From positions 1 through 29,011 of the IMG/VR virus record IMGVR_UViG_3300046010_011601: 29,011 bases of DNA. One strand, 5' to 3'. The DNA is from a virus. The notes under the pieces were generated by a model that worked only from the letters and a program-made list of their open reading frames with translations, was not told where the DNA came from and searched no databases. Of the stretch, positions 3 to 28,304 are shown in pieces; positions within the stretch are counted from its first letter, which is position 1, and each line of letters starts with the position of its first letter. A program made the position numbers and the translations under genes.

Positions 3-395
3 CCAATAAATTTAAGAGCTAAACAGTTTACTGCAGCAGAATACCAACAAGCGACCAAATCAAAGTCGTTTAATCCAAAAGATTACGAGTGGAACGAAGA
101 GAAGCTGTTATACATAAAGAAAGATTTTGAAAAATCGTTGCCAGTTAACGAAAATTATTTTAGGTTTAAAAAACAAACTTCAACAAGAACGGTAGAAGAG
201 CAAGTTCACACAGCAATAAAAGAGATTAATAAAAAGTTAGAAGAAGCTAATAAGTTATTAAAATATACTGAGAGGCTAAAAGAAGAAGTTTCTGTACTCG
301 GAGAGCTAAAACACAAAAAAAGAACCGACGAGCTGACCACGGTAATGCAGAAAAAGATAGCAGAAGTCTATACTCGCTGCAAAAAAATAAAATAA
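3..395 (+). CDS. 5'-truncated helical protein, possible prohead core component
   Basis: The reading frame is open from base 3 to a TAA at 393-395, and the start lies left of the window. The visible 130 residues contain no ATG, so a downstream TTG at 138 is an unlikely true start. The last 85 residues are rich in Lys, Glu and Leu with heptad-like spacing (VEEQVHTAIKEINKKLEEAN and onward), suggesting a coiled coil, and the protein ends in a basic tail. I do not recognise the family. In T4 the small prohead-core genes 67 and 68 precede the protease gene 21; this gene lies two positions upstream of the protease here, so a core role is plausible from position only. It is not recognisably portal protein sequence. 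Confidence 0.6.
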   Translation, partial: PINLRAKQFTAAEYQQATKSKSFNPKDYEWNEEKLLYIKKDFEKSLPVNENYFRFKKQTSTRTVEEQVHTAIKEINKKLEEANKLLKYTERLKEEVSVLGELKHKKRTDELTTVMQKKIAEVYTRCKKIK

Positions 396-402
396 ACAAA
401 CA

Positions 403-410
403 TATTTATA
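403..410 (+). promoter_or_regulatory. putative late promoter motif, copy 1 (TATTTATA)
   Basis: ATATTTATA fills most of the 21-base gap before the gene at 417 and ends only 6 bases before its ATG. If it works like a T4 late promoter -10 box, transcription would start at or next to the start codon, giving a leaderless or nearly leaderless mRNA. Confidence 0.5.
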
Positions 411-416
411 GTTACC

Positions 417-1805
417 ATGACTACCGCAAATTTATACAAAAAACACCTTAACGGAGAGATATCTAAAAGTAAATTCTTACAAGAAGTGCGTAAGGACGAT
501 AATTTGCCCTGGATAACAAACGTAACTTCTTATGAAGATGCGATAAACATACTAAAAAATAAAAGAATCATATCAGAAGTTCAATTAACGGTAGATCAAA
601 AAATAGATAGATTAAATCCTTACATATACAAGCATGCTCTAAATAAAGAAATAGAAAAGGCTAACGTAAAAGACGATGTGGCTTTCGAAAAGGCAAAGAA
701 TAGAGTAGTAAATCGTCTAATGAAGGATATAAATAAGAATCGCTACGAGATGTTCGACGGTTCAGATAAGGTTAAAAAGCAGGACAAAAAGCTTGAAATG
801 GTTAAAGTAAAAGGAGCTTCTAATAAAGACGAAGCCAACGCCATGAAAAAAGTAAAGGGACAAGAAATACCTAAAGCTAATACCAAAGCCAGCAAAAAAG
901 AGAATAAAAAAGGCAAACCAAAAGGAGTAAAAGAAATGACTACTAATGCCAAAAAAGCAAAAGGCATAGTAAAAGTCATGGAAAAACCAGGAAAGCCTAA
1001 AATAGTAAAAGAGAGCGTGTTAGAAGCTCTTATTTCCCTGTCAAAAAAAAAGTCAAGTAATATCTTGACAGAGGATACTCACGAAGAATTTTCATTGGGA
1101 CAAAACGTACATCTTCCACAAAAAGATAGAGAGCAATTTTCAGTATCTAACGGTATAGTAAAAGGAATTCGTGGTGGTACTATAACCATAGAACTTCCAA
1201 TACACGACGAAAATAATAAGCCGATTGAAATAACAAGGCAAGTTAACGTATTAAAGCACGCGAAGAAGGAGAGTAACGAACAAAATAACAAAAACGAAAG
1301 CGTGCTCGAAAAACACACTAATAAGAACGGAATAGAATTCCAAGTTGGGGAAAAAGCGAAAGATCCTAAAGGTAACGAAATCACAGTTCGTGGATTCAAG
1401 ACAGAAGACGGAGCGGTATACGCTTTAACTGGAACAAATTCTATGTACAACTCCGTAAAAATAGACGACTTAGTTAAACCAGGGGACGAAGCTCCTATTA
1501 GTGATAAGGAGTATAGAGATAAGGCGTTTGGCAAATTACCGAATTATAACGCTGGTCAAGGTTGGTTGAGTCAACAAGTTACAAAAAAAGAAAGTAAGTT
1601 AGATAAAGTCGTAGGTAAATTAAAAGAGTTTATAAAAAACAAGAAAAAAGACGAAGTAGAAGAAGCAGTAGACGTAGTAACTGGTACTGAACCTGACGGT
1701 GACGAAGTATCTATAACCACTCTTCCTTCAGGCCAAGGCGTAAAAAAAGTTGCTCAATTAAAAAAACAAGGCGTAAAATCAGCAACGTCAAAAACAGTAG
1801 TTTAA
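417..1805 (+). CDS. Lys-rich protein upstream of prohead protease, probable head-core/internal protein
   Basis: This 462-aa protein has three visible parts: a helical N-terminal region (about 1-115), a very lysine-rich low-complexity linker (about 118-215), and a C-terminal half with two short beta-rich stretches (about 224-282 with G-I-V-K-G-I-R-G-G-T-I-T-I-E-L, and about 306-355) that resemble small SH3-like barrels. Its stop codon overlaps the ATG of the protease gene by one base, so the two are translationally coupled. The motif ESVLE occurs twice (199-203 and 294-298) and resembles the hydrophobic-X-Glu sites cut by T4-type prohead proteases, so it may be a protease substrate. The basic linker could pair with the acidic gp22 scaffold. 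I do not recognise the family; a core role is inferred from position and composition. Confidence 0.75.
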   Translation: MTTANLYKKHLNGEISKSKFLQEVRKDDNLPWITNVTSYEDAINILKNKRIISEVQLTVDQKIDRLNPYIYKHALNKEIEKANVKDDVAFEKAKNRVVNRLMKDINKNRYEMFDGSDKVKKQDKKLEMVKVKGASNKDEANAMKKVKGQEIPKANTKASKKENKKGKPKGVKEMTTNAKKAKGIVKVMEKPGKPKIVKESVLEALISLSKKKSSNILTEDTHEEFSLGQNVHLPQKDREQFSVSNGIVKGIRGGTITIELPIHDENNKPIEITRQVNVLKHAKKESNEQNNKNESVLEKHTNKNGIEFQVGEKAKDPKGNEITVRGFKTEDGAVYALTGTNSMYNSVKIDDLVKPGDEAPISDKEYRDKAFGKLPNYNAGQGWLSQQVTKKESKLDKVVGKLKEFIKNKKKDEVEEAVDVVTGTEPDGDEVSITTLPSGQGVKKVAQLKKQGVKSATSKTVV

Positions 1806-2437
1806 TGGCAAAAGATTTATTGATAGAGTATTCGGTATTTAAGCCGAAGATGAAAATAAACGAAAGCAGACGTCACTCAAACGGTAACTTAATAGTGAGC
1901 GGACAAGTGCAAGCTTGCGATAAACCAAACGCCAATAGAAGAATATACCCTTACGATACGCTAAGAAAAAAAGTGGACGCGTACATCGATGGACCAATTA
2001 GAGAGAATAGAGCTTTGGGAGAATTGGATCACCCTCAAGATTCTGTAGTTAACTTAAAAAACGTATCTCACAATATATTAGAATTGTGGTGGGAAGGTAA
2101 AGATTTATTCGGCAACATAGAAATATTACCAACAACTTCTGGAAACATATTAAAAACATTATTCGAAAATAGAATAACTGTAGGCATATCTTCAAGAGCT
2201 TTAGGAAGCGTAACTCCTATAGGCGAAGGTCTAGTGCAAGTTGAAGATGATTTAGACTTAATATGTTGGGATTTTGTTTCTACTCCTTCGACTTACGGCG
2301 CTTACATGCATCCAATAAAAGGATTAAACGAAGGCTTTGATCCTACAATTAATCCAACAATAGGAAAATACGACGTTGCTCATAGATTAGTTTCAGATAT
2401 TATCTGCACTATGGGAGGATATTGTTGCGTGAAATAA
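1805..2437 (+). CDS. gp21: prohead core protease (T4 gp21-like)
   Basis: This 210-aa protein matches the size and motifs of the T4 gp21 prohead protease family, a serine protease that cleaves scaffold, core and capsid proteins inside the prohead and then destroys itself. The N-terminal NRRIYP (44-49) is typical. The candidate catalytic His is H76 in GELDHP, and the nucleophile lies in GISSRALGS (S129 or S130). The following DLICWDFVSTPS (151-162) is the usual third conserved block. The start is the ATG overlapping the upstream TAA by one base. It lies immediately before gp22 and gp23, as in T4. The Cys-containing C-terminus (CTMGGYCCVK) is not something I associate with the family. Confidence 0.94.
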   Translation: MAKDLLIEYSVFKPKMKINESRRHSNGNLIVSGQVQACDKPNANRRIYPYDTLRKKVDAYIDGPIRENRALGELDHPQDSVVNLKNVSHNILELWWEGKDLFGNIEILPTTSGNILKTLFENRITVGISSRALGSVTPIGEGLVQVEDDLDLICWDFVSTPSTYGAYMHPIKGLNEGFDPTINPTIGKYDVAHRLVSDIICTMGGYCCVK

Positions 2438-2465
2438 AAATATTTTTCTATATTTTTATTTTTTT
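2432..2465 (+). terminator. weak AT-only terminator-like hairpin after gp21
   Basis: An 11-bp perfect inverted repeat (2432-2442 with 2451-2461) has an 8-base loop and runs into a T tract to 2465. It overlaps the gp21 stop codon. The stem is entirely A:T, so it would be thermodynamically weak, and it may simply be AT-rich spacer. Confidence 0.35.
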
Positions 2466-2591
2466 GTATAAGTACGTATATTTATTGTCGTACATGCGTC
2501 ACCACAATCTAAATGCGACGCTAATCTACACACATATCCTATATTGCTTTTTATTAAGTAAGCAATCAAATCCAGTTTAATTTATTAACAA
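2438..2591 (+). other. 154-base gp22 leader, the longest intergenic region
   Basis: This is the largest non-coding stretch. It holds, in order, the T-rich end of the hairpin after gp21, the promoter-like TATTTATT flanked by GTACG/CGTAC, a short GCGTC/GACGC pair around 2507-2532, and a TTGCTT/AAGCAA pair with a 10-base loop around 2546-2567, then an A/T-rich segment up to the gp22 ATG. It has no Shine-Dalgarno sequence. The long structured leader is unlike the other short leaders here and may tune scaffold and capsid expression. Confidence 0.5.
2479..2486 (+). promoter_or_regulatory. putative late promoter motif, copy 2 (TATTTATT)
   Basis: ATATTTATT, one base off the majority motif, lies in the 12-base loop of a GTACG (2472-2476) / CGTAC (2489-2493) inverted repeat, 105 bases before gp22. 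It is the only motif copy in the gp22-gp23 unit and thus the likely promoter for the capsid gene. Confidence 0.45.
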
Positions 2592-3680
2592 ATGGACGAT
2601 CTGTCAAAACAGGCCATCCTAGACGCTAAGCAGTTAAGGGCTCACATTACAGCCATAACAAAAGCATCTCTGGAAGAACAATTTGGCCCAACAATGAAAA
2701 AAATGATTCAAGAGTCTTTGGAAAAAGAACTTGACGAAGTTGATGAAATGGAAGAAGGCAAAGATAAAACTAAGCCTGAACACGGAAAAAAACCAGTTGT
2801 AAAGGAAGAAGAAGAAATCGACGAAGCTAAAGACGAAGAACTCGAAGAAGGCAAAGATGAAGAATTAGAAGAAGCCTATGACGAAGAAATCGACGAAGCT
2901 AAAGACGAAGAACTCGATGAATCCGAAGACGAGCTCGACGAAGTACTAAAAGAACTCGAAGCCCTATCAGAGTACGAATCAGAACTTGAAGAGGCAGACG
3001 AAGACGAAGAAGGTGCTGAAGAAGAACTCGGTGGAGAAGAAGGTATAGAAGACGAAATGGGTGAAGAAGACGAAGAAGAAATCGTAATCACTTTCGGTCA
3101 ACTTAAACAAGCTCTTGCTCCATTTATGGACGCAGAAGAAGGCGAAGAGTTCGAACCAGAAGAAATGAGCGATGAAGAAGTCGTTAACGTTGACGAAGAG
3201 CTTGAAGAAGCGCAAGTTAACGAACCCTACGTAAAAGCTACCGCTGCTCCTAAAAAAGCTCAATCTTCTAAAATGAACGAGAAATTAGCTCATTCAGTTA
3301 AGAAGGAAGCAAAAAAACACGACGAAGAAAAAGCAAAAATGGAAGAAACCATCAAGCGTCTTCAGCGTGAGTTAAGAGAAACAAACCTCTTAAGTGCAAA
3401 GAATCTTTACATGAATAAGATATTTGCAAAAAGATCTTTGAGCGAGTCTCAGAAGTTTAAAGTAATAAGTTCATTCGACAAGGCAACTACAGTAGATCAA
3501 GTTAAAACTGTATATCAAACCCTTAGCGAATCTCTTACTACAAAAACCCAAAAGACTAGCATAAGAGAATCAGTTGGTTTCGCGTCAAAACCCGCGGGTA
3601 ACGCGCCTGTTAAACGCAGCATAATCGAAGTAGATCCTACTTTCGATAGATGGGCAATCATAGCAGGATTAAAAAAATAA
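2592..3680 (+). CDS. gp22: prohead scaffold/core protein (T4 gp22-like)
   Basis: This 362-aa protein is longer than T4 gp22 (269 aa). Residues about 45-210 are an extreme Glu/Asp-rich low-complexity region, which accounts for the excess length. Residues about 230-315 form a predicted coiled coil and helical domain (EETIKRLQRELRETNLLSAK, then a SLSESQK segment and FDKATTVDQVKTVYQTL) that is the conserved core of gp22-type scaffolds. The C-terminus (about 346-362, VDPTFDRWAIIAGLKK) is conserved-looking and may bind the capsid or be trimmed off. The gene lies between protease and capsid genes, as in T4. Its product should form the inner core on which gp23 assembles and should be degraded by gp21. 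The next gene starts 24 bases downstream without a promoter motif of its own. Confidence 0.88.
   Translation: MDDLSKQAILDAKQLRAHITAITKASLEEQFGPTMKKMIQESLEKELDEVDEMEEGKDKTKPEHGKKPVVKEEEEIDEAKDEELEEGKDEELEEAYDEEIDEAKDEELDESEDELDEVLKELEALSEYESELEEADEDEEGAEEELGGEEGIEDEMGEEDEEEIVITFGQLKQALAPFMDAEEGEEFEPEEMSDEEVVNVDEELEEAQVNEPYVKATAAPKKAQSSKMNEKLAHSVKKEAKKHDEEKAKMEETIKRLQRELRETNLLSAKNLYMNKIFAKRSLSESQKFKVISSFDKATTVDQVKTVYQTLSESLTTKTQKTSIRESVGFASKPAGNAPVKRSIIEVDPTFDRWAIIAGLKK
2811..2917 (+). repeat. 35-base direct repeat inside gp22 acidic region
   Basis: An identical 35-base sequence occurs at 2811-2845 and 2883-2917, offset by 72 bases (24 codons). It encodes EEIDEAKDEEL twice. The exact nucleotide identity, including synonymous sites, suggests a recent in-frame duplication or slippage within the Glu/Asp-rich segment. 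Confidence 0.85.
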
Positions 3681-3704: not shown

Positions 3705-5423
3705 ATGGCAAATTTAGTACAAAGTCTGTTAAACGAGTCAGCTCAAAACGCTGCACAAGCCCAGTTTACAGTCGCTCAAAAATTGAGTAAAAAATGGGCA
3801 AAATCCGGACTGTTGAACGGTCTGGAAGGTCAAGATCGCAATAACATGTCTATCATGTTAGAAAACCAAGCTAAGCAGCTTGTGATCGAAGCCTCTACTT
3901 CTGGCGGTGGTACCACTACAGGTGCTAACTTCACTGCTGGTACCGGCGAACAGTGGGCCGGTGTAGCTCTTCCGTTGGTTCGTAAGATCTTCGGACAGAT
4001 CGCTGCAAAAGAATTCGTTTCAGTTCAACCAATGAACCTGCCAGCTGGTTTAGTGTTCTTCTTGGATTTCCAGTACGGTAACTCTACCAACCCCGCTTTT
4101 GCTTTGGGTGGTTCTCTGTACGGTGCTAACACGAAGAACTTCGGTAACGCTGCTTCAGGTGGTCTTTACGGAGCTGGTAGATGGAACTACTCACTGAACC
4201 TGTTTTCTTCTTCTTTCGTTAGTGCTTCTGTTGCAACTGGTTCAGCTGTAACTTTCGCTGACGTACAGTTCGATTCAACTTTCAGTGGTTCTTTAGTTAC
4301 TCAAGCTACTACAAACACGCTCGCAGCAACTCAAGTGTTTAAAGTAACTATCGCAAACTTCCAAAGATCAGTTGCTCCTGCATTCAACGAGCTTGGCGTA
4401 CGCGCTACTGAATTCGTTGGTTCTGGTATCGGAACTGACGGTGTGATCAATCAGTTTACCACTTACAACTCTGTTGCTGACACTATCAGCTTCATTTTCA
4501 CCGGTTCTCTGTCATCTGTACAGTTTAACCAATTGACTGGTTCCGCTAGCCAATTGCGTGTACTGTTCAACAAAGACACTGACTTTAACGTAAGAGGTGA
4601 CTTCGAAGACAGAAGCTCAACAGAAGGTTTCTCAGTACCAAACGCTGCTAGCAACACAAGCATCGTTATCCCTGAGATTAACGTACAGATGAAATCTCAA
4701 ACGATTTCTGCTAAAACTCGTAAGCTTAGAGCTCAGTGGACTCCGGAATTCGCTCAGGATCTGAACGCGTATCACTCTCTTGACGCAGAGGCCGAATTGA
4801 CTGGTCTTTTGTCTGAGTACATCTCTTTAGAGATCGATCTCGAAGTACTTGAGATGTTGTTACAAGAAGCTCCTACAGTTGAATATTGGTCAGCTCGCGT
4901 AGGTAGTCAGATCAACGCGACCAATACCGCTTTCGTAACCAACACTGCTGGTGTGTTCTACACTCAAATGTCTTGGTTCCAAACAATCGGTATCAAACTG
5001 CAAAAAGTATCTAACATCATCCACCAGCGTACACTTCGCGGAGGTGCCAACTTCATGGTAATTTCTCCAGCGGTTGCAACCATCCTGGAATCAATCCCTG
5101 GATTCGCTGCTGACACTGACGGTGCTGCTGATACTATGAAATACGCTTTCGGCGTACAAAAGATCGGTAGCTTGAACAGTCGCTACAAGGTGTATAAGAA
5201 CCCATACATGACTGAAAACACTATCCTGATGGGATTCCGTGGAAATCAGTTCCTTGAGTGCGGTGCTGTATACTCTCCTTATGTGCCTCTGATCATGACT
5301 CCTCTTGTGTACGATCCACAAACCTTCACTCCGCGCAAAGGTATCATGACCCGCTACGCGATGACGATGGTTCGTCCTGAATACTACGGAGTAGTTTACG
5401 TAGCTGATCTGAACATTGTGTAA
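3705..5423 (+). CDS. gp23: major capsid protein (T4 gp23-like)
   Basis: This 572-aa protein carries clear gp23 hallmarks: SVQPMNLPAGLVFFLDFQYG (106-125, aligning with T4 GVQPMN) and the block about 331-383 with SAKTRKLRAQW, FAQDLNAY and SLDAEAELT. The segment about 165-325 is probably the surface insertion domain, longer than in T4. LVIE62-A63 sits where T4 gp23 is cut (after Glu65, LTE-A), so the mature protein probably starts at A63. Arg codons are unlike the neighbours: 13 of 18 are CGT or CGC, against 2 CGN of 24 in the fibre-block gene at 19490. This is consistent with selection for very high expression. It follows gp22 by 24 A-rich bases and is followed by a strong terminator. Confidence 0.97.
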   Translation: MANLVQSLLNESAQNAAQAQFTVAQKLSKKWAKSGLLNGLEGQDRNNMSIMLENQAKQLVIEASTSGGGTTTGANFTAGTGEQWAGVALPLVRKIFGQIAAKEFVSVQPMNLPAGLVFFLDFQYGNSTNPAFALGGSLYGANTKNFGNAASGGLYGAGRWNYSLNLFSSSFVSASVATGSAVTFADVQFDSTFSGSLVTQATTNTLAATQVFKVTIANFQRSVAPAFNELGVRATEFVGSGIGTDGVINQFTTYNSVADTISFIFTGSLSSVQFNQLTGSASQLRVLFNKDTDFNVRGDFEDRSSTEGFSVPNAASNTSIVIPEINVQMKSQTISAKTRKLRAQWTPEFAQDLNAYHSLDAEAELTGLLSEYISLEIDLEVLEMLLQEAPTVEYWSARVGSQINATNTAFVTNTAGVFYTQMSWFQTIGIKLQKVSNIIHQRTLRGGANFMVISPAVATILESIPGFAADTDGAADTMKYAFGVQKIGSLNSRYKVYKNPYMTENTILMGFRGNQFLECGAVYSPYVPLIMTPLVYDPQTFTPRKGIMTRYAMTMVRPEYYGVVYVADLNIV

Positions 5424-5474: not shown

Positions 5475-5488
5475 ATGCTGTCTACTCA

Positions 5489-5496
5489 TATTTATA
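5489..5496 (+). promoter_or_regulatory. putative late promoter motif, copy 3 (TATTTATA)
   Basis: ATATTTATA ends 18 bases before the phoH ATG, just after the gp23 terminator. It lies in the 19-base loop of a CTACT (5482-5486) / AGTAG (5506-5510) inverted repeat. Its position after a terminator makes a promoter role likely, since the next genes need new transcription. Confidence 0.6.
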
Positions 5497-5514: not shown

Positions 5515-6192
5515 ATGAGTAGTACAAAACCACAAAAAGTAGTAAAAAAACCAAAGAATCCAATAAAGTTTCAAGTATCTTTAAACGAAGAACAGAAACA
5601 AGCAAAGGCGATTATATTAGAAAATAAAATAACAGTTATACGAGGGGGAGCAGGTTCGGGAAAGTCTATGGTAGCAGCACAGGTTGCGTTAGATTTACTC
5701 TTTACTAATCAAGTAGAGAAAGTAATATTAACTAGACCAGCTGTAACTTCTGGAGAAGATTTGGGATTTATGCCTGGCGATAAAGACGCGAAACTTGCTC
5801 CGTATACAGCAGCCATATACGACAATATGTATAGACTGTATAACAAAGAAAAGATTGATAGAGAAATAGCAGAAGGAAAAATAGAAGTAATACCAGTTGC
5901 TTTTATGAGAGGAAGAAATTTAAGCAATTGTTGTGTAGTGGTGGATGAAGGGCAGAATATAACTCATCGACAAATGGAATTGATATTGGGTAGATTGTGC
6001 GAGGGTTCTAAGATGATTATATGCGGAGACGTAGCCCAAATCGATTTAAAAGATAAGAAGTTATCCGGATTTAATTTTATATGTAACAATTTAACAAACG
6101 TTATAGGATTTGCTGTAGTGACATTAAAAACCAATCACAGAGATCCAATAGTGGAGGATATACTAAAAATATACATTGATCACAGAGATTAA
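5515..6192 (+). CDS. phoH: PhoH-like P-loop ATPase
   Basis: This 225-aa protein is a compact PhoH-family ATPase. It has a Walker A GGAGSGKS (44-51), TRP at 73-75, a Walker B VVVDE (141-145) followed by GQN, a GDVAQID motif (171-177) and NHRDPIV (207-213). These are the standard PhoH and superfamily-1-helicase-like nucleotide-binding blocks. The first 20 residues are a short Lys-rich extension. PhoH is a frequent auxiliary gene in aquatic phages; its molecular role in infection is unsettled, with phosphate stress and RNA metabolism both proposed. Its place between capsid and neck genes is unusual compared with T4 and would give late, structural-type expression. It shares a transcription unit with gp13, which starts 6 bases after its stop. 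Confidence 0.95.
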   Translation: MSSTKPQKVVKKPKNPIKFQVSLNEEQKQAKAIILENKITVIRGGAGSGKSMVAAQVALDLLFTNQVEKVILTRPAVTSGEDLGFMPGDKDAKLAPYTAAIYDNMYRLYNKEKIDREIAEGKIEVIPVAFMRGRNLSNCCVVVDEGQNITHRQMELILGRLCEGSKMIICGDVAQIDLKDKKLSGFNFICNNLTNVIGFAVVTLKTNHRDPIVEDILKIYIDHRD

Positions 6193-10094: not shown

Positions 10095-10104
10095 ACCAAA
10101 AAGA

Positions 10105-10112
10105 TATTTATA
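10105..10112 (+). promoter_or_regulatory. putative late promoter motif, copy 4 (TATTTATA)
   Basis: ATATTTATA in a 38-base gap ends 20 bases before the ATG of the 830-aa fibre gene. The leader after it is A-rich (AACAAATAAAAA) with no Shine-Dalgarno sequence. I see no inverted repeat around this copy. Confidence 0.55.
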
Positions 10113-10132: not shown

Positions 10133-12625
10133 ATGAGAATATATAGTCCAGTAATATCAGGTTCCATAATAATAAGTGGTTCTGGCGTAGTCAGTGGAAG
10201 CTGGACCGTGACAAATGGAATCACTGGATCAGTATTCGGCACTGCTAGTCAAGCAATATCTAGTAGTTTGGCTCTCACTGCTTCTTTTTTATTGGGAAGT
10301 GTAGCAAGTGCATCATTTGCTACTAATGCCGCAACTGCATCTACTTTACAATCAGGCACATATGCAATTACAGCAAGCCAAGCAAATTCAAGTAGCTTTG
10401 CACAAACAGCTTCTTTTGCGCCGGCTTACGTATTGAATAGTAGTACATCTTCAATGTTAGCACCATACGTGTTAACTTCACAGACGAGCTCGATGAGCGT
10501 ACTAAGCGCTTCATTTGCTATAAGTTCTTCTATAGCAATTACTGCATCAGTAGCATTGAATAATTTAGTAACTGCGTCCGTATCTCAAAACACTATTACT
10601 TTCACTAAAGGGGATGGAAGTACTTTCCCTATTACAGTTAACACAGGTTCTGGAGGCGGCGGTGCAGGCGCTTCTGATTTTCCTTTTACGGGGTCTGCCA
10701 TAATTTCGGGCAGCTTAGTAGTAACAGGATCAATAACAGCGACCCAAGGATATACAGGTTCTTTATTTGGAACTGCTAGTTGGGCTTTAAATGTTATAAG
10801 TTCATCGTATGCAGTTTCTTCTTCATTTGCTGCAACAGCTTCTTTTTTTAGCGGTTCTATTTTAAATGCTATAAGTTCATCTTATGCTTTAACAGCTTCA
10901 TTTGCTGATGGTGCTCGTAATGCTCAAGACGTTTTAATTTATGTAAAGAATGTAACTGGAGTACAAATCGATAAAGGAAAAGTTGTTAGAATATCAGGAG
11001 CTACAGGAGATAATGCATTGATAGATCTTGCAGACTGGACAAATGATACTAATTCAGCAAATACTTTAGGATTAACTAATGAAAATATACCTGATCAAGC
11101 TTTTGGTTACGTAATGACAGAAGGTAAGTTGTTAGGTATAGATACATCTAATTATACAGCAGGACAGTTATTATTTTTAGCATCAAGTGGATCAATGACA
11201 GGTTCAGCTCCACAGGCTCCACTACACGCAGTAAGATTAGGTCAAGTATTAAGAGTACAATTGAATAATGGTTCAATGTATGTTAGAATTGACAATGGAT
11301 TCGAATTAGATGAATTACATGATGTTAAAATAATAAGTCCTGAAACTGGTCAAGGATTAGTAAGAAGTGGAAGTATATGGATAAATGCCGCAGTTACTGC
11401 ATCAACAGCACTTAGTGCATCATTTGCTGTAAGCTCATCTAGAACTGTAACGGCATCTTTGGCTTTAAATAATATTTTAACAGCCTCAGTAAATTTTAAT
11501 ACTATTACATTTACTAAAGGAGATGGTAGCACATTCCCAATTACTGTAAATACAGGTAGTGGTGGTGGAGGAGGTGGAAGTACTTTTCCATTTACTGGAT
11601 CAGCTATTATATCAGGTAGCTTAATAGTAACAGGTTCTATTATCTCGACTTTGGGATATACTGGATCTTTATTTGGTACTGCAAGTCAAGCAATTAGTTC
11701 TTCTTTTACACAAACAGCTTCTTTTGCCCCTGCTTATGTATTAAATAGTAGTACAGCATCGATGCTTACTCCGTACTTACTAGTATCTCAGACGAGTTCA
11801 ATGAGTGTAGCAACAGCTTCTATTGCAACTAATGCAGCTACTGCTTCTTTTTTAGCAATAGGTACATACTCTATTACGTCAAGTCAATCAATATCTAGTA
11901 GTTTCGCTGTTACTTCATCAGTAGCATTAACTAATATAATTACGGCTTCAATTAATCTAAATACCATTACGTTTACTAAAGGAGATGGAACTACATTTCC
12001 ACTAACAGTAAATACAGGTAGTGGCGGTGGTGGCGGTGGAAGCATCTCTGATTTTCCTTTTACTGGTTCTGCTATTATATCTGGTAGCTTAATAGTAACA
12101 GGTTCTATAATTGCAACTCAAGGAATTACTGGATCTTTATTTGGTACTGCGAGTCAAGCTGAAACTAGTAGTTTGGCGCTTACTGCTTCTTTTTTATTGG
12201 GAAGCATCGCTACAGCATCTTTAGCTTTTACTGCGTCTTTTACTCCTAATGCTTTAGTAACAGCATCAATATCATCAAATACTATTACTTTTACAAAAGG
12301 AGATGGAACTACTTTTCCTATTACAGTTACAGGTGGCGGAGGCGGAGGAAATTCTGTAAATATAATAGAAGTTAATAACCAAACAATATCAATTCCTTCT
12401 GGAAATGGAGACACGTATATTTATAATTCAAAAGGGGTAAATACTTTTATATTACCAACAGCTTTAGGAAATAAAAATCAATATATAATAAAATTAATAG
12501 ATGGTTTAGCAACTATATATGCAATAGATTTTAGCTTGATAGATGATGGAACAATAGTAAACATAGATAATCCATTTAACGCAATAAACTTAAGTTCTAA
12601 TAATACACAATACATAATATATTAA
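10133..12625 (+). CDS. large repeat-built tail-fibre protein (830 aa)
   Basis: This fibre-like protein is made of Ala/Ser/Thr-rich beta repeats (SSSFAxTASF, NAATAS) and four copies of the shared module, at residues about 148-220, 451-520, 605-675 and 711-739 (the last lacks its second half). A non-repetitive domain at about 262-418 (QDVLIYVKNVTGVQIDKGKV, ending with ELHDVKI and GSIWIN) is of a type common in phage fibres. The C-terminal about 90 residues form a different beta domain (IPSGNGDTYIYNSKGVNTFI, ending NNTQYIIY) that could be the distal tip. There is no S74 chaperone domain and no enzymatic motif that I can see. It is likely a trimeric shaft with interspersed knobs. The motif ATATTTATA also occurs inside the gene at 12417-12425. 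Confidence 0.82.
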   Translation: MRIYSPVISGSIIISGSGVVSGSWTVTNGITGSVFGTASQAISSSLALTASFLLGSVASASFATNAATASTLQSGTYAITASQANSSSFAQTASFAPAYVLNSSTSSMLAPYVLTSQTSSMSVLSASFAISSSIAITASVALNNLVTASVSQNTITFTKGDGSTFPITVNTGSGGGGAGASDFPFTGSAIISGSLVVTGSITATQGYTGSLFGTASWALNVISSSYAVSSSFAATASFFSGSILNAISSSYALTASFADGARNAQDVLIYVKNVTGVQIDKGKVVRISGATGDNALIDLADWTNDTNSANTLGLTNENIPDQAFGYVMTEGKLLGIDTSNYTAGQLLFLASSGSMTGSAPQAPLHAVRLGQVLRVQLNNGSMYVRIDNGFELDELHDVKIISPETGQGLVRSGSIWINAAVTASTALSASFAVSSSRTVTASLALNNILTASVNFNTITFTKGDGSTFPITVNTGSGGGGGGSTFPFTGSAIISGSLIVTGSIISTLGYTGSLFGTASQAISSSFTQTASFAPAYVLNSSTASMLTPYLLVSQTSSMSVATASIATNAATASFLAIGTYSITSSQSISSSFAVTSSVALTNIITASINLNTITFTKGDGTTFPLTVNTGSGGGGGGSISDFPFTGSAIISGSLIVTGSIIATQGITGSLFGTASQAETSSLALTASFLLGSIATASLAFTASFTPNALVTASISSNTITFTKGDGTTFPITVTGGGGGGNSVNIIEVNNQTISIPSGNGDTYIYNSKGVNTFILPTALGNKNQYIIKLIDGLATIYAIDFSLIDDGTIVNIDNPFNAINLSSNNTQYIIY

Positions 12626-16011: not shown

Positions 16012-16026
16012 AAATAGTTACCCGTA

Positions 16027-16034
16027 TATTTATA
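16027..16034 (+). promoter_or_regulatory. putative late promoter motif, copy 5 (TATTTATA)
   Basis: ATATTTATA ends 19 bases before the ATG at 16054. It sits in the 12-base loop of a perfect GTTACC (16017-16022) / GGTAAC (16035-16040) inverted repeat. The copy-2 site has the same arrangement, with a 12-base loop and the motif inside. Confidence 0.6.
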
Positions 16035-16053: not shown

Positions 16054-17682
16054 ATGTCAATTAGAATAATATTAAAAAATAGTTCTGCTGTAGGTACTCA
16101 ACCCACTGTCCAAGATTTGGCATTAGGTGAATTAGCCATAAATACTACAGATGGAGTAATATTTTTTAAACAGAGCAATGGCGTTTCTGAATCTATACAA
16201 AGATTATCGTCTAGTGGAAGTGCAACTGCATCTTATGCATTACAAGCATTAAGTAGTTCTTACGCAGCTACAGCATCTTTCTTATTAGGAAGCATATCAT
16301 CAGCTTCGTTTGCAACTACTGCAGCTACAGCTTCTACTACGCCCAATGCTATAGTAACAGCATCAGTTAACTCAAATACTATAACTTTTACCAAAGGCAA
16401 TGGTTCTACATTTGCATTAACAGTAAATACCGGTTCAGGCGGTGGAGGTGGAGGTGCTTCTGATTTTCCATTCACTGGTTCGGCTATTATATCTGGTAGC
16501 TTAGTAGTTACAGGATCAATTAGAGCCACTCAAGGAGTTACTGCTTCTTTATTTGGAACTGCGAGTCAAGCAATAAGCTCGTCGTATGCATTATCTTCAA
16601 GTTACGCAAACTTATCTAATATACAGTACGTTACTAGTAGTCTACAATCCTTATCACAAATAGAAGTATTAGATTATTCTACAGACGTTGCTGTAGACTT
16701 TACCGCAGGTAGACTTAAATTTATATTTGGAAATCCAGCCACTCACTCTATATCTTCGTTTTCTTTTAATTCTACATTTATAACTGATAGGTTTAATAAA
16801 GTATTGGACGATTACACAGCTTCAGCTGCGTGGTCAAATGCAGGATACACTTTAATATCTGCTTCGATATTTGAAGGTGGCGTATTATTGGCCCAAACAG
16901 GAGTTGGTACTACATTATCATATCAAACTTTGGATTCTGGAAGTCACACTTATCTTTTACAAATAACAGCAAGTAATCCAGCGAATGGATCTATTCTTGT
17001 ACAAAGTGCATCTTTGGCAGGCACTCTTAGCAAAACAAATCCTGGAGCTCCAACCATAACCCCAACAGCTAGTATTCAATTAGGAGCATCATCAAATCAA
17101 ATAGAACAAGGCGCGACTGGAAGTATCACTTACGTGACAGCTTCTGGAGCTGCAAATGGATGGGTATTAAATTTTGTAACTTCTTCTAGAACAAGCCCCA
17201 TATTTGTTACAGGATCATTGACAGGATCGGCGAGCATAGTGTTTGGAGCTACATCATCATACTCTTCTTCAGGCGTTAATGGATCAGATAATAGTCCGGC
17301 CTTAGTTACTACTGCGTTGGCAACTAGTACATTTACAAAGATAAGAAGTCTAAGATCTGGAGCTTCAGTATCTTCGAGTTTAACTCAAAATGAAATAGAA
17401 AATATTGGAGGTTGGGATACTACTATAGGTGGAAATGTGGGAATTATATCTAAAGGCACTGTTACAAATCCTGGACAATCAACAACTATAACATGGACTG
17501 GAGATAAGTACCACTATATAGTATATAACTCCTCTTTAGCCTTTTTAACCAATATACAATCATCGGGATTTGGAGTTTTAAGTTCATTTACTTCGTCGTC
17601 TCTTGGAGATTATAAAGTGTACAGAACTATTTTACTTCAAGCTGGAGGTGCAGGAACAACTATAACCTATGATTTAACATAA
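16054..17682 (+). CDS. tail-fibre protein with LGELAINT-type N-terminus (542 aa)
   Basis: Residues 1-55 carry the pattern DLALGELAINTTDGVIFFK, a typical N-terminal region of phage tail fibres and baseplate-attached spikes. One copy of the shared fibre module follows (103-172), flanked by Ala/Ser repeats. From about 200 the protein changes to longer beta-rich domains: about 203-310 (SQIEVLDYSTDVAVDFTAGR onward), about 320-410, and a C-terminal domain of about 130 residues with GDKYHYIVYNSSLAFLTNIQ and a VYRTILLQAGGAG ending. The distal domains are probably the receptor-contacting part. The module copy has GNGSTFALT where the others have GDG(S/T)TFP, a small drift. It begins a new unit after a promoter-like motif and lies 3 bases before the next fibre gene. 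Confidence 0.82.
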   Translation: MSIRIILKNSSAVGTQPTVQDLALGELAINTTDGVIFFKQSNGVSESIQRLSSSGSATASYALQALSSSYAATASFLLGSISSASFATTAATASTTPNAIVTASVNSNTITFTKGNGSTFALTVNTGSGGGGGGASDFPFTGSAIISGSLVVTGSIRATQGVTASLFGTASQAISSSYALSSSYANLSNIQYVTSSLQSLSQIEVLDYSTDVAVDFTAGRLKFIFGNPATHSISSFSFNSTFITDRFNKVLDDYTASAAWSNAGYTLISASIFEGGVLLAQTGVGTTLSYQTLDSGSHTYLLQITASNPANGSILVQSASLAGTLSKTNPGAPTITPTASIQLGASSNQIEQGATGSITYVTASGAANGWVLNFVTSSRTSPIFVTGSLTGSASIVFGATSSYSSSGVNGSDNSPALVTTALATSTFTKIRSLRSGASVSSSLTQNEIENIGGWDTTIGGNVGIISKGTVTNPGQSTTITWTGDKYHYIVYNSSLAFLTNIQSSGFGVLSSFTSSSLGDYKVYRTILLQAGGAGTTITYDLT

Positions 17683-17685
17683 GCT

Positions 17686-19035
17686 ATGCCTATAATACTA
17701 CCTGCAGGATTTAATGTCACTAGCACAGAACCAGTAGATGCTAGATTTAGTGTGGCAAATGCTACAGCTAGACTTGGTTTGTCTGTTGCTAACGTATATG
17801 AAGGCTTGATAGTGTATCAAAGAGATAACGATACTATTTATGTTTTAGTAAATGCAGCTCAGCCATCATTAGAAGTGAGTTGGCAAATAATAGGAGCCAA
17901 TGTTAGCGGATCTTTATTTGTTACAGGAAGTATTACTAGTCTTGGAGGATTTACAGGATCTTTATTCGGCACAGCTAGTTGGGCAATAAATGCTTTAACT
18001 GCATCTTTTACGCCTAATGCGCTAGTAACTGCGTCTGTAAACTTAAATACAATAACATTCACTAAAGGTGATGGTAGTACTTTTCCAATAACTGTTAATA
18101 CAGGTTCAGCGGGAGGAGGATCTGGTGCAGGATTCCCATTTAGTGGTTCTGCTGTTATAACAGGTAGTTTAATAGTTACAGGATCAGTTACAGCTACTCA
18201 GGGTTATTCTGGGTCATTATTTGGAACTTCTAGTTGGTCAATCAACGCCTTAACATCTTCTACATCGACCAGTGCGTCCTATGCAGTCACTGCGAGCGTA
18301 GCACAATCTGGTACGGGATCATTTACTGGATCTTTCTTTGGAGTATTTAGTGGGTCTTTATTTGGAACCTCTAGTTGGTCGATAAGTGCACTAACAGCAT
18401 CTAATACTCCCAATGCATTAATTACAGCTTCGGTCTCATTAAATACTATTACGTTTACTAAAGGGGACGGAAGTACGTTTCCAATAACTGTTAACACTGG
18501 TTCTGGAGGCGGTGGAGGAGGTGGTGGCGGAACTACTACAAACTCTCTATTCTTTAATGCATCTGGCAGCGGATCAGCACCAGGTACTTCTTTCGACGGA
18601 TCTGTAGCTTTTACTGCTAGTTACAACACTGTTGGTGCAAATAAGGTGATAACTTCAGGGCCAACTGCGCCCACTGGAGGATTAGATGGAGATTATTATT
18701 TCCAATATGATGTATCGAATACTTTATTTTTCTATACAACTAGAAAAACTGGTTCTTACACTTTGGCAGGAATAGACATAGGTAGATTAGTAGAAATTGA
18801 TTCTGGTTCTGCAAATACATTAACTATACCAACAAATGCAAGTGTGGCTATTCCACTATATTCAAGATTTACAGTAACTCAATATGGAGCAGGGCAGACA
18901 TCATTTGCATCTGGCTCTGGAGTAACAGTCAGAAGTAGGAGTAATTTTACAAAAATCTCTGCAAGATATGGTTTTGCCAATTTAGTAAAAATTGGTACAG
19001 ATGAATGGTATTTATATGGAGATATATCATCATAA
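17686..19035 (+). CDS. tail-fibre protein with VDARF-type N-terminus (449 aa)
   Basis: The N-terminal domain (about 15-72: EPVDARFSVANATARLGLSV, then VYEGLIVYQRDNDTIYVL and SWQIIG) is a known-looking attachment domain of phage fibres. Two module copies follow, at 116-184 and 248-282. The second ends in a run of nine glycines and continues into a different C-terminal half (about 283-449). That half contains LDGDYYFQYDVSNTLFFYTT and a beta domain with YTLAGIDIGRLVEIDSG, TLTIPTN and RFTVTQYGAG, of a type common at fibre tips. The segment NALTASFTPNALVTASV (102-118) recurs in part in the second 700-aa paralogue downstream. Three bases separate it from the preceding fibre gene, so the two are probably co-expressed. 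Confidence 0.82.
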   Translation: MPIILPAGFNVTSTEPVDARFSVANATARLGLSVANVYEGLIVYQRDNDTIYVLVNAAQPSLEVSWQIIGANVSGSLFVTGSITSLGGFTGSLFGTASWAINALTASFTPNALVTASVNLNTITFTKGDGSTFPITVNTGSAGGGSGAGFPFSGSAVITGSLIVTGSVTATQGYSGSLFGTSSWSINALTSSTSTSASYAVTASVAQSGTGSFTGSFFGVFSGSLFGTSSWSISALTASNTPNALITASVSLNTITFTKGDGSTFPITVNTGSGGGGGGGGGTTTNSLFFNASGSGSAPGTSFDGSVAFTASYNTVGANKVITSGPTAPTGGLDGDYYFQYDVSNTLFFYTTRKTGSYTLAGIDIGRLVEIDSGSANTLTIPTNASVAIPLYSRFTVTQYGAGQTSFASGSGVTVRSRSNFTKISARYGFANLVKIGTDEWYLYGDISS

Positions 19036-23824: not shown

Positions 23825-24480
23825 GTGATAGATTAACAGTAGACGGAGATGTAATATCTCAAAGAGCAGGTTTACAATCGGGTTTGATCACTAATTTCCA
23901 ATTCCAAGTAGGAGATGGTTCTTTACTTTACAATAATCAGAATGAAATTAATGGATGGTGTAGAAGAAATAGATCATGGAATAAAATAGTAGGAGAATGG
24001 AAAAATAATTCAAATTACATAAATAATACATCATATAAACAAACAGAGTTAGCTATAAAAAATCCAAATATTGTTGGATCGTTATTTGATACCAATGGTA
24101 CTCAGATATCAATTAATTATACAACTTTTATAAATAATAATCAAGGTAATTTAAGAATAACAAATAATCATCCAACGTACATCGTAACTGCAATTTTTAT
24201 TGGAGAAAACACGGCAAACTGTGCACCTGTGATATATTTTAGTGGTAAAAATTTTCCTATAAGTACAGGCGAATCCGGGATCTTTATAAGAGATTTAAAC
24301 GGTCCAAGTGGATCTACTACATGCGTATCTGGAACTGGAATAGGATCTGCAGCTTACAGTTGGGCCAATACGAGTGGCGGAGGTTCTTCGGGCACTGCTT
24401 TCTCTTCCTTTGGATGTTTTTTTGATAACAACTCACTAGACCCAGGTGTAGGTAGAACTGCAGTACTTACTTTTAATTAA
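23821..24480 (+). CDS. 219-aa unknown tail-associated protein
   Basis: It starts inside the stop of paralogue B (ATGA overlap), so it is translationally coupled. The N-terminus (SDRLTVDGDVISQRAGLQSG) and a Trp-rich stretch (about 45-62, NGWCRRNRSWNKIVGEWKNN) are followed by an Asn-rich beta region (about 85-125) and a Gly/Ser-rich C-terminus with TTCVSGTGIGSAAYSW and SGGGSSGTAFSSFGC. I do not recognise a family. Coupling to the paralogue pair suggests it acts with them, as a tip, cap or adaptor. Codon use is as AT-rich as its neighbours. It ends the fibre block; the next gap carries a promoter-like motif. Confidence 0.65.
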   Translation: MSDRLTVDGDVISQRAGLQSGLITNFQFQVGDGSLLYNNQNEINGWCRRNRSWNKIVGEWKNNSNYINNTSYKQTELAIKNPNIVGSLFDTNGTQISINYTTFINNNQGNLRITNNHPTYIVTAIFIGENTANCAPVIYFSGKNFPISTGESGIFIRDLNGPSGSTTCVSGTGIGSAAYSWANTSGGGSSGTAFSSFGCFFDNNSLDPGVGRTAVLTFN

Positions 24481-24525
24481 AACTTATATATATGCAACTA
24501 CTACGTTTTTTAAGTAAAGTTTCGA

Positions 24526-24533
24526 TATTTATT
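24526..24533 (+). promoter_or_regulatory. putative late promoter motif, copy 6 (TATTTATT)
   Basis: ATATTTATT in the 79-base gap before the sheath gene ends 26 bases before its ATG. It is the same TATTTATT variant as in the gp22 leader. No convincing hairpin flanks it. Confidence 0.5.
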
Positions 24534-26939: not shown

Positions 26940-26951
26940 TAGTTATACGTA

Positions 26952-26959
26952 TATTTATA
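26952..26959 (+). promoter_or_regulatory. putative late promoter motif, copy 7 (TATTTATA)
   Basis: ATATTTATA in the 42-base gap ends 22 bases before the gp19 ATG and is followed by a pure A-rich leader (AAAGAAAAAACAAAACGAAA). It would let the tube gene be transcribed separately from the sheath gene. Confidence 0.55.
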
Positions 26960-26981: not shown

Positions 26982-27467
26982 ATGCCAATACTTTCTCCAA
27001 ACGAAATAATGTTTACCGCTTTCGAACCGATGTTACAGCATCGTTTCATATTTTACATAGACGGTATTCCTGCCTATATGATTAAAAAGGCAGACGCTCC
27101 AGGAGTATCATTTAATGAGATAAAGTTGGATCACATCAACGTATATCGTAAGATAAAAGGTAAAGCTGAGTGGAGGGACATCACTCTTGGGTTGTACAGT
27201 CCCATATCTCCTTCTGGCCAGCAGGCTGTGATGGAGTGGGTAAGACTTCACCACGAATCAGTAACAGGCCGCGACGGGTACTCAGATTTTTATAAAAAGG
27301 ACGTAAACTTGAACGTAGTTGGTCCGTTGGGCGACATAGCTAGTTCTTGGGTGATAAAAGGAGCTTTCATCAAGGAAGCAAATTTTGGAAACTACGACTT
27401 TTCTGCAGTAGAAGCGGTGGAAATCAGCATGACTCTTGGAATGGATTACTGTGAAATTCTCTTTTGA
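26982..27467 (+). CDS. gp19: tail tube protein (T4 gp19-like)
   Basis: This 161-aa protein is almost the size of T4 gp19 (163 aa). It shows the family blocks HRFIFYIDGIPAYMIKKADAP (from about residue 20, the first strands), VYRKIKGKAEWRDITLGLYS (about 54-73), the SPSGQQAVMEWVRLHHES helix, and the C-terminal ASSWVIKGAFIKEANFGNYD with VEISMTLGMDYCEI. It forms the inner tube through which DNA passes. Its codons are less AT-biased than those of the fibre genes. It has its own promoter-like motif and is followed by a terminator hairpin, so it appears to be a one-gene unit, fitting a protein needed in many copies. Confidence 0.96.
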   Translation: MPILSPNEIMFTAFEPMLQHRFIFYIDGIPAYMIKKADAPGVSFNEIKLDHINVYRKIKGKAEWRDITLGLYSPISPSGQQAVMEWVRLHHESVTGRDGYSDFYKKDVNLNVVGPLGDIASSWVIKGAFIKEANFGNYDFSAVEAVEISMTLGMDYCEILF

Positions 27468-27511: not shown

Positions 27512-27547
27512 AAAACTCCCAATATTTATAGTAAAGGGAGTTTTTTT
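27512..27547 (+). terminator. intrinsic terminator with promoter motif in its loop
   Basis: AAAACTCCC (27512-27520) pairs with GGGAGTTTT (27536-27544) as a 9-bp stem with a 15-base loop, followed by T's to 27547. It lies 44 bases after the gp19 stop and directly abuts the ATG of the HNH gene at 27548. The 15-base loop contains the ATATTTATA motif. GGGAG in the stem could also act as a Shine-Dalgarno-like site 7 bases before the ATG. Confidence 0.8.
27523..27530 (+). promoter_or_regulatory. putative late promoter motif, copy 8 (TATTTATA), inside terminator loop
   Basis: ATATTTATA lies in the loop of the terminator hairpin and ends 17 bases before the HNH gene ATG. As DNA it can act as a promoter while the RNA read from upstream folds into the terminator, so the same bases could end one unit and begin the next. 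Confidence 0.5.
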
Positions 27548-28288
27548 ATGCTAAGTACTTATTTTAAATTAATTAGAAAAGCGATATCACAAAATAGACA
27601 AAAGGGCGATGGAGGTTATTACGAATCTCATCACATAATTCCAAAATCTTTCGATAAAAAAAGTAGCACAGTATTATTAACCCCGGAAGAGCACTATAGG
27701 GCGCACAAAATACTTGTAGAATGCTTCAAACATCATCCAATATATTGCCATAAAGTATATTGGTCATTTCACAGAATGTCTTATGATGGTAAAAGAGTAA
27801 TCTCTGAAATAGAATATAAGCAAGCGAGGGAAACTTTGATGTCTTTTTGGAAAAGAAAAAAATCAGAAACTCACAAAAAAAATATAGGATCAAAGCATAA
27901 GGGCAAAAAGTGGATAATTAATCCAATAACTAAAGATATTAGACAAATTGATGCTAAAGATCTTCAAAAATACTTAAATGAGGGTTGGATAAACAGCAAC
28001 AAAAGTGTAGGCCAAAAAAGATCTGAAAGTACCAAGAAGAAAATATCAGAGAAAGCTAAAAATAGATCCAAAGAAGCTTATAAAAATATAGGATCTCTTG
28101 GAAAAGTAGTTTGCGAAAATTTAAAAGATGGTACTGTACACGAAGCAGCTTCAGCTACTGAATTGGCCAAAAAATTAAACATGCATTATTCATTTATTCA
28201 TGATTACTTAAATAGAGGAATAAAAAGAAGAGGGGGTAGTAAGTATTACGAATTCTTAAATACGCATAAAATTTATTACAAAATTTAA
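27548..28288 (+). CDS. free-standing HNH homing endonuclease-like protein
   Basis: This 246-aa protein starts with an HNH-type nuclease core (about 25-57: YYESHHIIPKSF, then TVLLTPEEHYRAHKIL) that matches the HHxxP...LTxxEHxxAH form of phage homing enzymes. The usual Asn (as in DNLVxLT) is replaced by Ser or Thr (SSTVLLT), so activity is uncertain. The middle holds two NUMOD3-like Lys/Ser-rich DNA-contact stretches (SETHKKNIGSKHKGKK and KRSESTKKKISEKAKNRS) and DLQKYLNEGW. The C-terminus has a NUMOD1-like helix-turn-helix (ASATELAKKLNMHYSFIHDY). Such genes sit between conserved genes and spread by cutting alleles that lack them. It has inserted between gp19 and gp26 homologues without disrupting either. 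Confidence 0.85.
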   Translation: MLSTYFKLIRKAISQNRQKGDGGYYESHHIIPKSFDKKSSTVLLTPEEHYRAHKILVECFKHHPIYCHKVYWSFHRMSYDGKRVISEIEYKQARETLMSFWKRKKSETHKKNIGSKHKGKKWIINPITKDIRQIDAKDLQKYLNEGWINSNKSVGQKRSESTKKKISEKAKNRSKEAYKNIGSLGKVVCENLKDGTVHEAASATELAKKLNMHYSFIHDYLNRGIKRRGGSKYYEFLNTHKIYYKI

Positions 28289-28296
28289 AATATACA

Positions 28297-28304
28297 TATT
28301 TATA
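28297..28304 (+). promoter_or_regulatory. putative late promoter motif, copy 9 (TATTTATA)
   Basis: ATATTTATA in the 29-base gap after the HNH gene ends 13 bases before the gp26-like ATG. It keeps the baseplate gene under its own signal, independent of the inserted nuclease gene. Confidence 0.55.

Follow-up and report, generated by a model that had tools for sequence, protein, structure and literature searches.

A predicted late-type promoter box and its leader types in a clade of T4-like phages probably infecting Bacteroidota

How is a gene expressed when a promoter-like motif stands only a few bases ahead of its start codon? This question is raised by the gene that begins at position 417 of IMG/VR virus record IMGVR_UViG_3300046010_011601, of which positions 1 to 29,011, the whole stretch of DNA analyzed here, are hereafter called the window. 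The window, 29 kb long, is a fragment from a T4-like phage and carries a gp21-like protease gene starting at 1805, a gene in the position of gp22 at 2592, gp23 at 3705, a PhoH-like gene at 5515 and a tail sheath gene at 24560. Gene 417 (417..1805, plus strand; 462 amino acids, aa), a predicted near-leaderless member of the capsid cluster located upstream of gp21, is preceded by TATTTATA at 403-410, so that six bases separate the motif from the ATG at 417-419, as a preliminary description of this DNA had reported. We consider it probable that this motif belongs to a late-type promoter box of a T4-like clade, from which transcription would start 4 nucleotides (nt) downstream, and that the ATG of gene 417 has mostly been fixed at this very place.

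In the mechanism that we propose, NATATTTATN would be the single-element late-type promoter of a T4-like phage clade probably infecting Bacteroidota, and would be read by a phage gp55-like sigma factor on the host RNA polymerase, with a start at the purine four bases downstream. Selection would mostly have fixed the ATG of gene 417 at the start site wherever the gene has its own box, and the first gene of the 417-gp21 transcript would be leaderless and thus translated by initiation at a 5'-terminal AUG, the window copy being a relaxed case with a predicted leader of 3 nt. Most other box-led genes would have A-rich leaders of 8-27 nt, read in the normal Bacteroidota manner without a Shine-Dalgarno sequence, while the gp22-gp23 message would carry a two-hairpin leader of about 100 nt, probably an mRNA stabilizer or a protein-binding control site.

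The box, which can be written ATATTTAT(A/T), is strand-specific and lies ahead of genes of the fragment. Indeed, the plus strand of the window has 11 copies of ATATTTAT and the minus strand none, and TATTTATA occurs ten times on the plus and twice on the minus strand, a total of 12 against 5.5 expected that none of 100 shuffled sequences reached. Eight of the ten plus-strand copies of TATTTATA stand within 40 nt upstream of one of the 23 starts (binomial p = 5e-11). With up to one mismatch TATTTATA is only weakly in excess (122 against 100 expected, a count reached in 2 of 100 shuffles), and the loose motif CATATTTATA with up to two mismatches is not above chance in the window (73 against 84 expected). 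On recheck, all nine motif-to-ATG distances listed in the preliminary description were correct: 6 bases at 417, 105 at 2592 (TATTTATT), 18 at 5515, 20 at 10133, 19 at 16054, 26 at 24560 (TATTTATT), 22 at 26982, 17 at 27548 and 13 at 28318. One further box had been overlooked, the variant GTATTTATA on the plus strand at 19008-19016, 34 bases ahead of start 19051. These distances and the enrichment of the box in the window are real and above chance. Moreover, the six-base gap at 417 recurs in a second, non-identical strain (L005) and also in L004, and is hence unlikely to be a sequencing error. The full box of gene 417, ATATTTATA, spans 402..410 on the plus strand and is also conserved in relatives.

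Regarding these relatives, the best gp23 match in the phage collection is that of Microcystis phage Mel-JY01 (48% identity, 95% covered); Flavobacterium phage immuto (62%, 73% covered) comes next, and Rhodothermus phage RM378 (34%, 98% covered) follows behind an uncultured record. Immuto, together with the translation signals described below, suggests that the clade probably has a Bacteroidota host. When the 50 nt upstream of 1071 open reading frames (ORFs) were scanned in the window and 91 related loci (L006-L096), the most enriched 8-mer in the relatives was ATATTTAT itself, found ahead of 272 of the 1071 ORFs compared with 1 occurrence in matched coding stretches and 24 for its reverse complement; the box is thus family-wide and oriented. 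ATATTTAT is absent from the 12 kb of RM378 that was examined. L004 and L005, being the same virus as the window, were excluded from the spacing counts, and from the held-out set we dropped L160 (a repeat of the contig of L057) and L183-L188 (near-identical to the window). In titles and abstracts, with subscription journals mostly outside the coverage, nothing was found that describes such a motif, the promoters of immuto or a capsid leader RNA.

Where transcription would begin is suggested by two agreeing features, a purine at the fourth base after the box and a wall in the box-to-ATG spacings at 3 nt, and we predict the start at this purine, usually an A. In promoters with a spacing of at least 11 nt, the fourth base is a purine in 89% of cases (n=244), compared with 55-62% at neighboring positions, and this rises to 97% (n=143) and 98% (n=130) in two later-fetched sets (p 4e-23 or smaller); among nine boxes of the window it is A in eight and G in one. 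As for the wall, pooling 783 distinct boxes from the three sets gave a spacing below 3 in one, 3 in 51, 4 in 11, 5-10 in 25 and 11-30 in 549, with predicted leaders of 1-7 nt being rare (36 of 783). All 51 members of the three-base class have C or T immediately before the ATG, which fits the usual transcription start pattern of a pyrimidine at -1 and a purine at +1, and in the four-base class the fourth base is T in 7 of 11, making the A of the ATG the next A. Placing the start at the fourth base also puts ATATTTAT in the same register as the -7 box of a Flavobacterium host, which is described as lying at -12 to -5 (PMC9723704) and 4-5 nt from the start (PMC6847099). A second promoter element was sought in three sets, and no position from -40 to -1 exceeds 66% (n=184, 112 and 172); a host-like -33 TTTG upstream of the boxes is not above control either. 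These sequences do not agree with the offset of T4, by which the preliminary description had starts 5-8 bases downstream of the box. Its expectation of ultra-short leaders holds insofar as very short leaders are predicted and gene 417 would be near-leaderless; for the window copy, which had been given no leader at all, the predicted start is A414 (plus strand) and the leader is about 3 nt (ACC), with 0 nt predicted for the 47 homologues having a three-base spacing.

The distance between box and start codon differs markedly among gene families. Overall, a box is present within 150 nt upstream of 322 of 903 genes and the distribution of spacings is bimodal. The counts by family that follow also take in L097-L099 and include a few hits truncated at contig ends. 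The phoH genes have a box in 42 of 67 cases, mostly at 12-29 nt, gene 6198 in 25 of 62 (9-23 nt) and gp22 in 70 of 88 (61-107 nt, 67 of these at 88-107), while no box was found within 150 nt in any of the 82 gp21 and 85 gp23 homologue hits, gp21 presumably being read from the 402-410 box of gene 417 and gp23 from that of gp22. For gene 417 itself, 51 of 65 homologue hits have a box. After removal of four hits cut by contig ends (L021, L045, L046 and L068) and with CTATTTAT allowed, 47 of the 61 homologues with complete 5' ends, among which some contigs are double (L008/L032, L010/L036), have a spacing of exactly 3 nt, three have 4 nt, one, the window, has 6 nt and one has 10 nt. Of 764 phage pairs with 60-70% gp23 identity, 63% have the same spacing at gene 417; the corresponding shares are 6% at phoH, 4% at gene 6198 and 3% at gp22. 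The spacer triplets of the 47 three-base cases are of 12 different kinds. The comparison of leader lengths across related phages, which the preliminary description had proposed as a check, hence shows that the closer relatives mostly keep the box of gene 417 still nearer to its ATG.

Within the subclade to which the window belongs, the spacing has drifted and takes values of 3, 4, 6 and 10: among the loci fetched with its member L020 (12 of 17 examined), it is 3 in six, 4 in three, 6 in L282 and 10 in L278, which is the L020 sequence, and no box is present in L293. By eye, the ORF upstream of gene 417 (window 3-395) ends unlike those of most relatives, which terminate in a conserved GQG(R/K) followed by the stop, and the altered spacing of the window may be linked to this changed end. 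A box 4 nt from the ATG also occurs in a second family, an ORF of about 650 aa starting with MADQQPQRNL (L035, L037, L041, L042, L044 and L050), and immuto possesses two genes with a 3-4-nt spacing, KNV73_gp114 (81525, spacing 3) and KNV73_gp048 (142474, spacing 4), along with the structured gp22 leader.

Which factor would recognize the box? A candidate gp55-like sigma factor of about 235-257 aa is encoded in 10 of 11 large related records, including that of the query itself; one copy, in the record of L179, has in-frame stops in the matched stretch. The candidate corresponds to immuto gp118, annotated as hypothetical (L101:28174-28872), and is also found at L265:1333-2067 and L267:1372-2106. 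In a model built from seven members, with a predicted local distance difference test score (pLDDT) of 73.6, residues ~31-140 superimpose on sigma region 2, and the model aligns with gp55 in a gp55-dependent open complex (7d7c chain F; Z 9.7, root-mean-square deviation 6.2, 127 residues) as well as region 2 of sigma-E (4lup; Z 9.4, deviation 2.7, 93 residues). The 50 structural matches listed all bear titles of sigma factors, but their Z is at most 10. Other searches gave less: a sequence profile search of the PDB gave no match, Foldseek gave a best E of 0.021 with none under 0.001, and a profile comparison with the RM378 sigma gave nothing. In a search with the Pfam sigma region 2 family (PF04542), 4 of 11 records gave a match at E<=1 and two exceeded the family's cut-off, RM378 with its own sigma and the L081 record with a 178-aa protein other than the candidate; the record lists of this and of the protein search differ by one member each (L098 versus L054). 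The candidate would probably read the box on the host RNA polymerase. The term late rests mostly on which genes the box serves, the enrichment in immuto given below being modest.

Other explanations have to be weighed against a start fixed at the ATG. Gene 417 could be translated mainly from longer upstream transcripts, with the 402 box serving gp21 and its position with respect to the ATG being irrelevant. This gains some credit from the tight packing of the genes in one direction and from the boxless state of gp21 in 82 of 82 hits. Moreover, on the immuto side, a homologue of gene 417 with a conserved N-terminus was found in 35 of 78 held-out loci searched, and 33 of these 35, like 4 of the 61 homologues above, keep the gene while lacking a close box, so that it is likely expressible by read-through from upstream transcripts. 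However, the spacing should then drift like that of phoH and of gene 6198, whereas it is identical in most pairs for gene 417; furthermore, the two immuto-side members having a close box (L158 and L162) also have it at exactly 3 nt, and boxes nearer than 3 nt are virtually absent from the pool. The immuto-side count slightly lowered our confidence in the fixed start site and raised that in read-through to the same small extent, leaving read-through as a minority explanation of some substance. The leaderless arrangement would go with gene 417 having its own promoter box. Compaction alone might also have squeezed the box, the upstream stop and the ATG together, without any selection for leaderless translation; indeed, the stop is near or abutting the box in most relatives (by eye). 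Spacings of 0, 1 and 2 should then be seen as well, and they account for a single one of 783 boxes; neither the pyrimidine found as last spacer base in all 51 three-base cases nor the window, with an upstream ORF ending at 395 and a spacing of 6, is in line with compaction, which we regard as improbable.

It is even less credible that the ATG of gene 417 has been mis-called and that a downstream codon, behind an ordinary leader, is used. Internal Met codons exist, the earliest being residue 16 in 13 of 61 homologues, but the position of the next Met varies between residues 16 and 161 (102 in the window), and conservation extends over alignment columns 3-45 behind the ATG, with, for example, L/Q at column 7 (59 of 61), Y/F at 8 (59), G at 14 (59), F at 21 (59), R at 26 (59) and D at 43 (61); Met1 is present in 61 of 61 by construction, the ORFs having been called from their first ATG. 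In the structural model, the fold opens with a helix at residue 3 and the mean pLDDT is 82-87 over residues 1-50, the full model being of low confidence (pLDDT 66.7, predicted template modeling score 0.24), and the protein matches no PHROG at E<=0.001. A conserved start further downstream, named in the preliminary description as an observation that would speak against very short leaders, was looked for in the homologues and is absent; we therefore rejected a downstream start, and gene 417 has a genuine start codon without downstream alternative. The last alternative concerns the strand. The consensus of T4 late promoters is TATAAATA, of which the box is the reverse complement, so that TATTTATA read on the minus strand gives the T4 consensus and might be a T4-type promoter directing an antisense RNA. 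The downstream signs are nevertheless on the sense side, with a purine at the fourth base in 89-98% of cases versus 65-68% at the mirror-image position, and it is the sense ATG that sets the spacing wall; this possibility was rejected and deserves very little weight. On the plus strand of the window, TATAAATA is found only at 728, within gene 417, and at 24129, 431 nt before the next start, and the sense box is TATTTATA/ATATTTAT instead of that of T4.

A number of points weigh against the fixed start site that we favor. Among the homologues of gene 417, five of 61 have the box at 14-17 nt and four have none, and the boxless majority on the immuto side has been given above as 33 of 35 within 40 nt. 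In immuto (L100), a box stands 1 nt before the annotated ATG at 1346 (KNV73_gp002), in the replication half and outside the pool of 783; it would be either fortuitous or an exception to the wall at 3. For gp22 alone, the purine at the fourth base falls to 82% (n=55), and this purine could be part of the recognition sequence rather than the mark of a start; all start sites are sequence predictions. Regarding the sigma candidate, its Z values are below ~13, where the tool gives a warning for helical folds, so that chance is possible, and its profile matches are marginal, with E=0.011 to phrog_234 (gp55) in two of nine members and E=0.013 to phrog_1740 ('RNA polymerase sigma factor'), which is the best match for five of nine. 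Within immuto, TATTTAT occurs within 50 nt upstream of 18 of 75 genes in the structural half (from 79 kb) versus 13 of 116 before it (p=0.026). The window is a 29-kb fragment in which neither a sigma gene nor a host is visible, the top gp23 relative, Mel-JY01 (L099), is listed with a Microcystis host, and the related sequences are non-independent, so that p-values overstate. Finally, leaderless mRNAs are reported to make up only 5.5% in Flavobacterium psychrophilum (PMC9723704).

In contrast to gene 417, gp22 has a long leader, as the preliminary description had stated; the 105-base spacing stands, but beyond its length this leader is a conserved and structured RNA. The box ATATTTATT lies at 2478..2486 (plus strand, like all features that follow), the predicted start is G2490 and the leader covers 2490..2591 (102 nt), with hairpin 1 at 2496..2521 (stem 2496-2500 with 2517-2521) and hairpin 2 at 2543..2566 (stem 2543-2549 with 2560-2566). 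Alignment A1 comprises 49 of 51 non-redundant leaders (79 found), L084 with its 61-nt leader and L099 being left out, and in it the two hairpins comprise 12 pairs with compensatory changes in 12 of 12. Paired cells amount to 98.3%, compared with 72.8% in shuffles and at most 55% when the structure is slid, and the 171 double-change cells were reached in none of 500 shuffles; further pair types are no more numerous than in shuffles (26 versus 26.3). Single-sequence folds of six leaders were mostly non-significant (z -1.1 to -3.1), so the strong evidence for this predicted structure is the comparative one. A covariance model, R1, gave a match at E<=1 in 35 of the 42 immuto-side loci searched (of 78), and in 23 of 42 at E<=0.01, always one per locus and 0.9-1.5 kb before gp23. 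It also gave a match in immuto itself, with no other there, and none at E<=0.1 in 28 tail-region loci (of 74). Against Rfam at E<=10, window positions 2380-2700 gave only RatA and RUF1, far under their gathering scores. Both hairpin loops end in UAAU(A), adjoining the 3' stem, which would suit tandem binding sites. The likeliest roles of the leader would be that of an mRNA 5'-end stabilizer or of a site for binding and control by a phage protein. Given that gp23 lacks a box, the message for scaffold and capsid presumably begins with this RNA.

Around this leader, the gp21-like head maturation protease (1805..2437; phrog_207, E=1.9e-45) has no box of its own, the gp22-like scaffold gene (2592..3680; no PHROG match) is named by its position before gp23, and the major capsid protein gp23 (3705..5423; phrog_138, E=9.8e-68) likewise lacks a box. 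Besides the 102 nt of gp22, the predicted leaders of seven other box-led genes are 15 nt for the phoH-like gene 5515 (box 5488..5496), 17 nt for gene 10133 (10104..10112), 16 nt for gene 16054 (16026..16034), 23 nt for the tail sheath gene 24560 (24525..24533), 19 nt for gene 26982 (26951..26959), 14 nt for gene 27548 (27522..27530) and 10 nt for gene 28318 (28296..28304). By eye, the box of gene 27548 sits within the loop of an inverted repeat resembling a terminator (window 27515-27548), made up of ACTCCC ... GGGAGT and a subsequent run of T, which ends directly at the ATG.

The preliminary description had also taken the scarcity of Shine-Dalgarno sequences as fitting short leaders. A Shine-Dalgarno-like core is indeed lacking at eight of ten box-led starts of the window, the exceptions being 27548 (AAAGGGAG), the sole box-led start with GGAG, and, weakly, 19051 (AAGG). 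However, none of 13 starts without a nearby box has such a core, and Bacteroidota mRNAs are described as lacking it although most are leadered (PMC6847099, PMC9723704, PMC7366714), so that its absence gives no support to short leaders. Along the same lines, leaderless translation is considered an insufficient explanation for missing Shine-Dalgarno sequences (PMC6847099), and leaders under 10 nt are given as 3.7% in Bacteroides (PMC7366714). Of the boxless genes (n=671), 65% have A at -3 and 51-58% at -11 to -14, an A-rich upstream pattern that has been described as a Bacteroidota translation signal (PMC7366714). A minority of the relatives' genes may nonetheless use Shine-Dalgarno sequences: in the main set, cores are found in 5.9% of box-led genes versus 3.4% in shuffled sequences and in 10.1% of the others versus 6.9%, and on the immuto side in 17.4% of other genes versus 10.6%. 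By eye, a GGAG-type sequence stands just before gp22 in L058, L060, L062, L063, L066, L075, L076 and L086, unlike in most of the clade. Mel-JY01 has the same box at a spacing of 33 before 362, 9667 and 14568, with GAGG, GGAG or GAGGG near the ATG, and Shine-Dalgarno-like cores in 8 of its 17 genes versus 26% in shuffles; leader length may hence follow the host's mode of translation initiation. Mel-JY01 also has an annotated ribosomal protein S21 gene (L099:5110-5337) between its gp21-like protease and the gene in the gp22 position.

With respect to known systems, the box resembles T4 late promoters, which work with gp55, gp33 and gp45, in being a single 8-bp AT-only element that stands before capsid and tail genes, with a gp55-like sigma candidate in the relatives, and differs from them in that ATATTTAT(A/T) is the reverse complement of TATAAATA and that 3 bases instead of 5 are predicted between TATTTATN and +1. 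The 8-bp T4 box would start at -13, as deduced from A(-13), and T4 late promoters are described as having no -35 element (PMC2988020); the boxes here likewise have none from -40 to -1 in the three sets. The candidate itself may share with T4 gp55 a sigma region 2 fold, as predicted by its model, and differs in its ~235-257 aa having no confident sequence match and its C-terminal half no clear match. With Bacteroidota sigma-A promoters (-7 box TAnnTTTG), the likeness is in register, an 8-mer at -12 to -5 followed by 4 nt, and the -33 element is said to be hardly visible in Flavobacterium johnsoniae (PMC6847099); the difference is that the box is ATATTTAT, not TAnnTTTG, with the final G missing, and no search for separate TAnnTTTG promoters was made. 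Leaderless genes of Deinococcus-Thermus, in which the -10 box is described as fixed adjoining the ORF (PMC12340547), similarly combine a promoter box at a set distance with a transcript beginning at the start codon, whereas here a phage late-type promoter, chiefly one gene family and a presumed host phylum with few leaderless mRNAs would be involved. Leaderless phage transcripts as such are already known, having been called 'often leaderless' (PMC5312081). The present case may thus be a variant of the T4-type late promoter architecture with one predicted leaderless gene.

More broadly, one could envisage a clade-wide, undescribed late promoter of the virion genes that sets fixed leader types, namely a leaderless gene 417 with a selected 3-nt spacing, leaders of 8-27 nt for most other genes and a two-hairpin leader for scaffold and capsid, leaderlessness being a selected setting of one late gene that is gained or lost along with the promoter, in hosts working without Shine-Dalgarno sequences; we give this wider proposal slightly less than an even chance. 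If true, it would provide a promoter definition for hardly studied phages that are common in environmental viral contigs and would make their transcription starts predictable from sequence. The cultured phage immuto, with its 3-4-nt-spaced genes and its gp22 leader, would allow these predictions to be directly tested. Moreover, the natural series of spacings found within one gene family (3, 4, 6, 10 and 14-17) would offer a way to ask how ribosomes working without Shine-Dalgarno sequences handle leaders of 0-14 nt.

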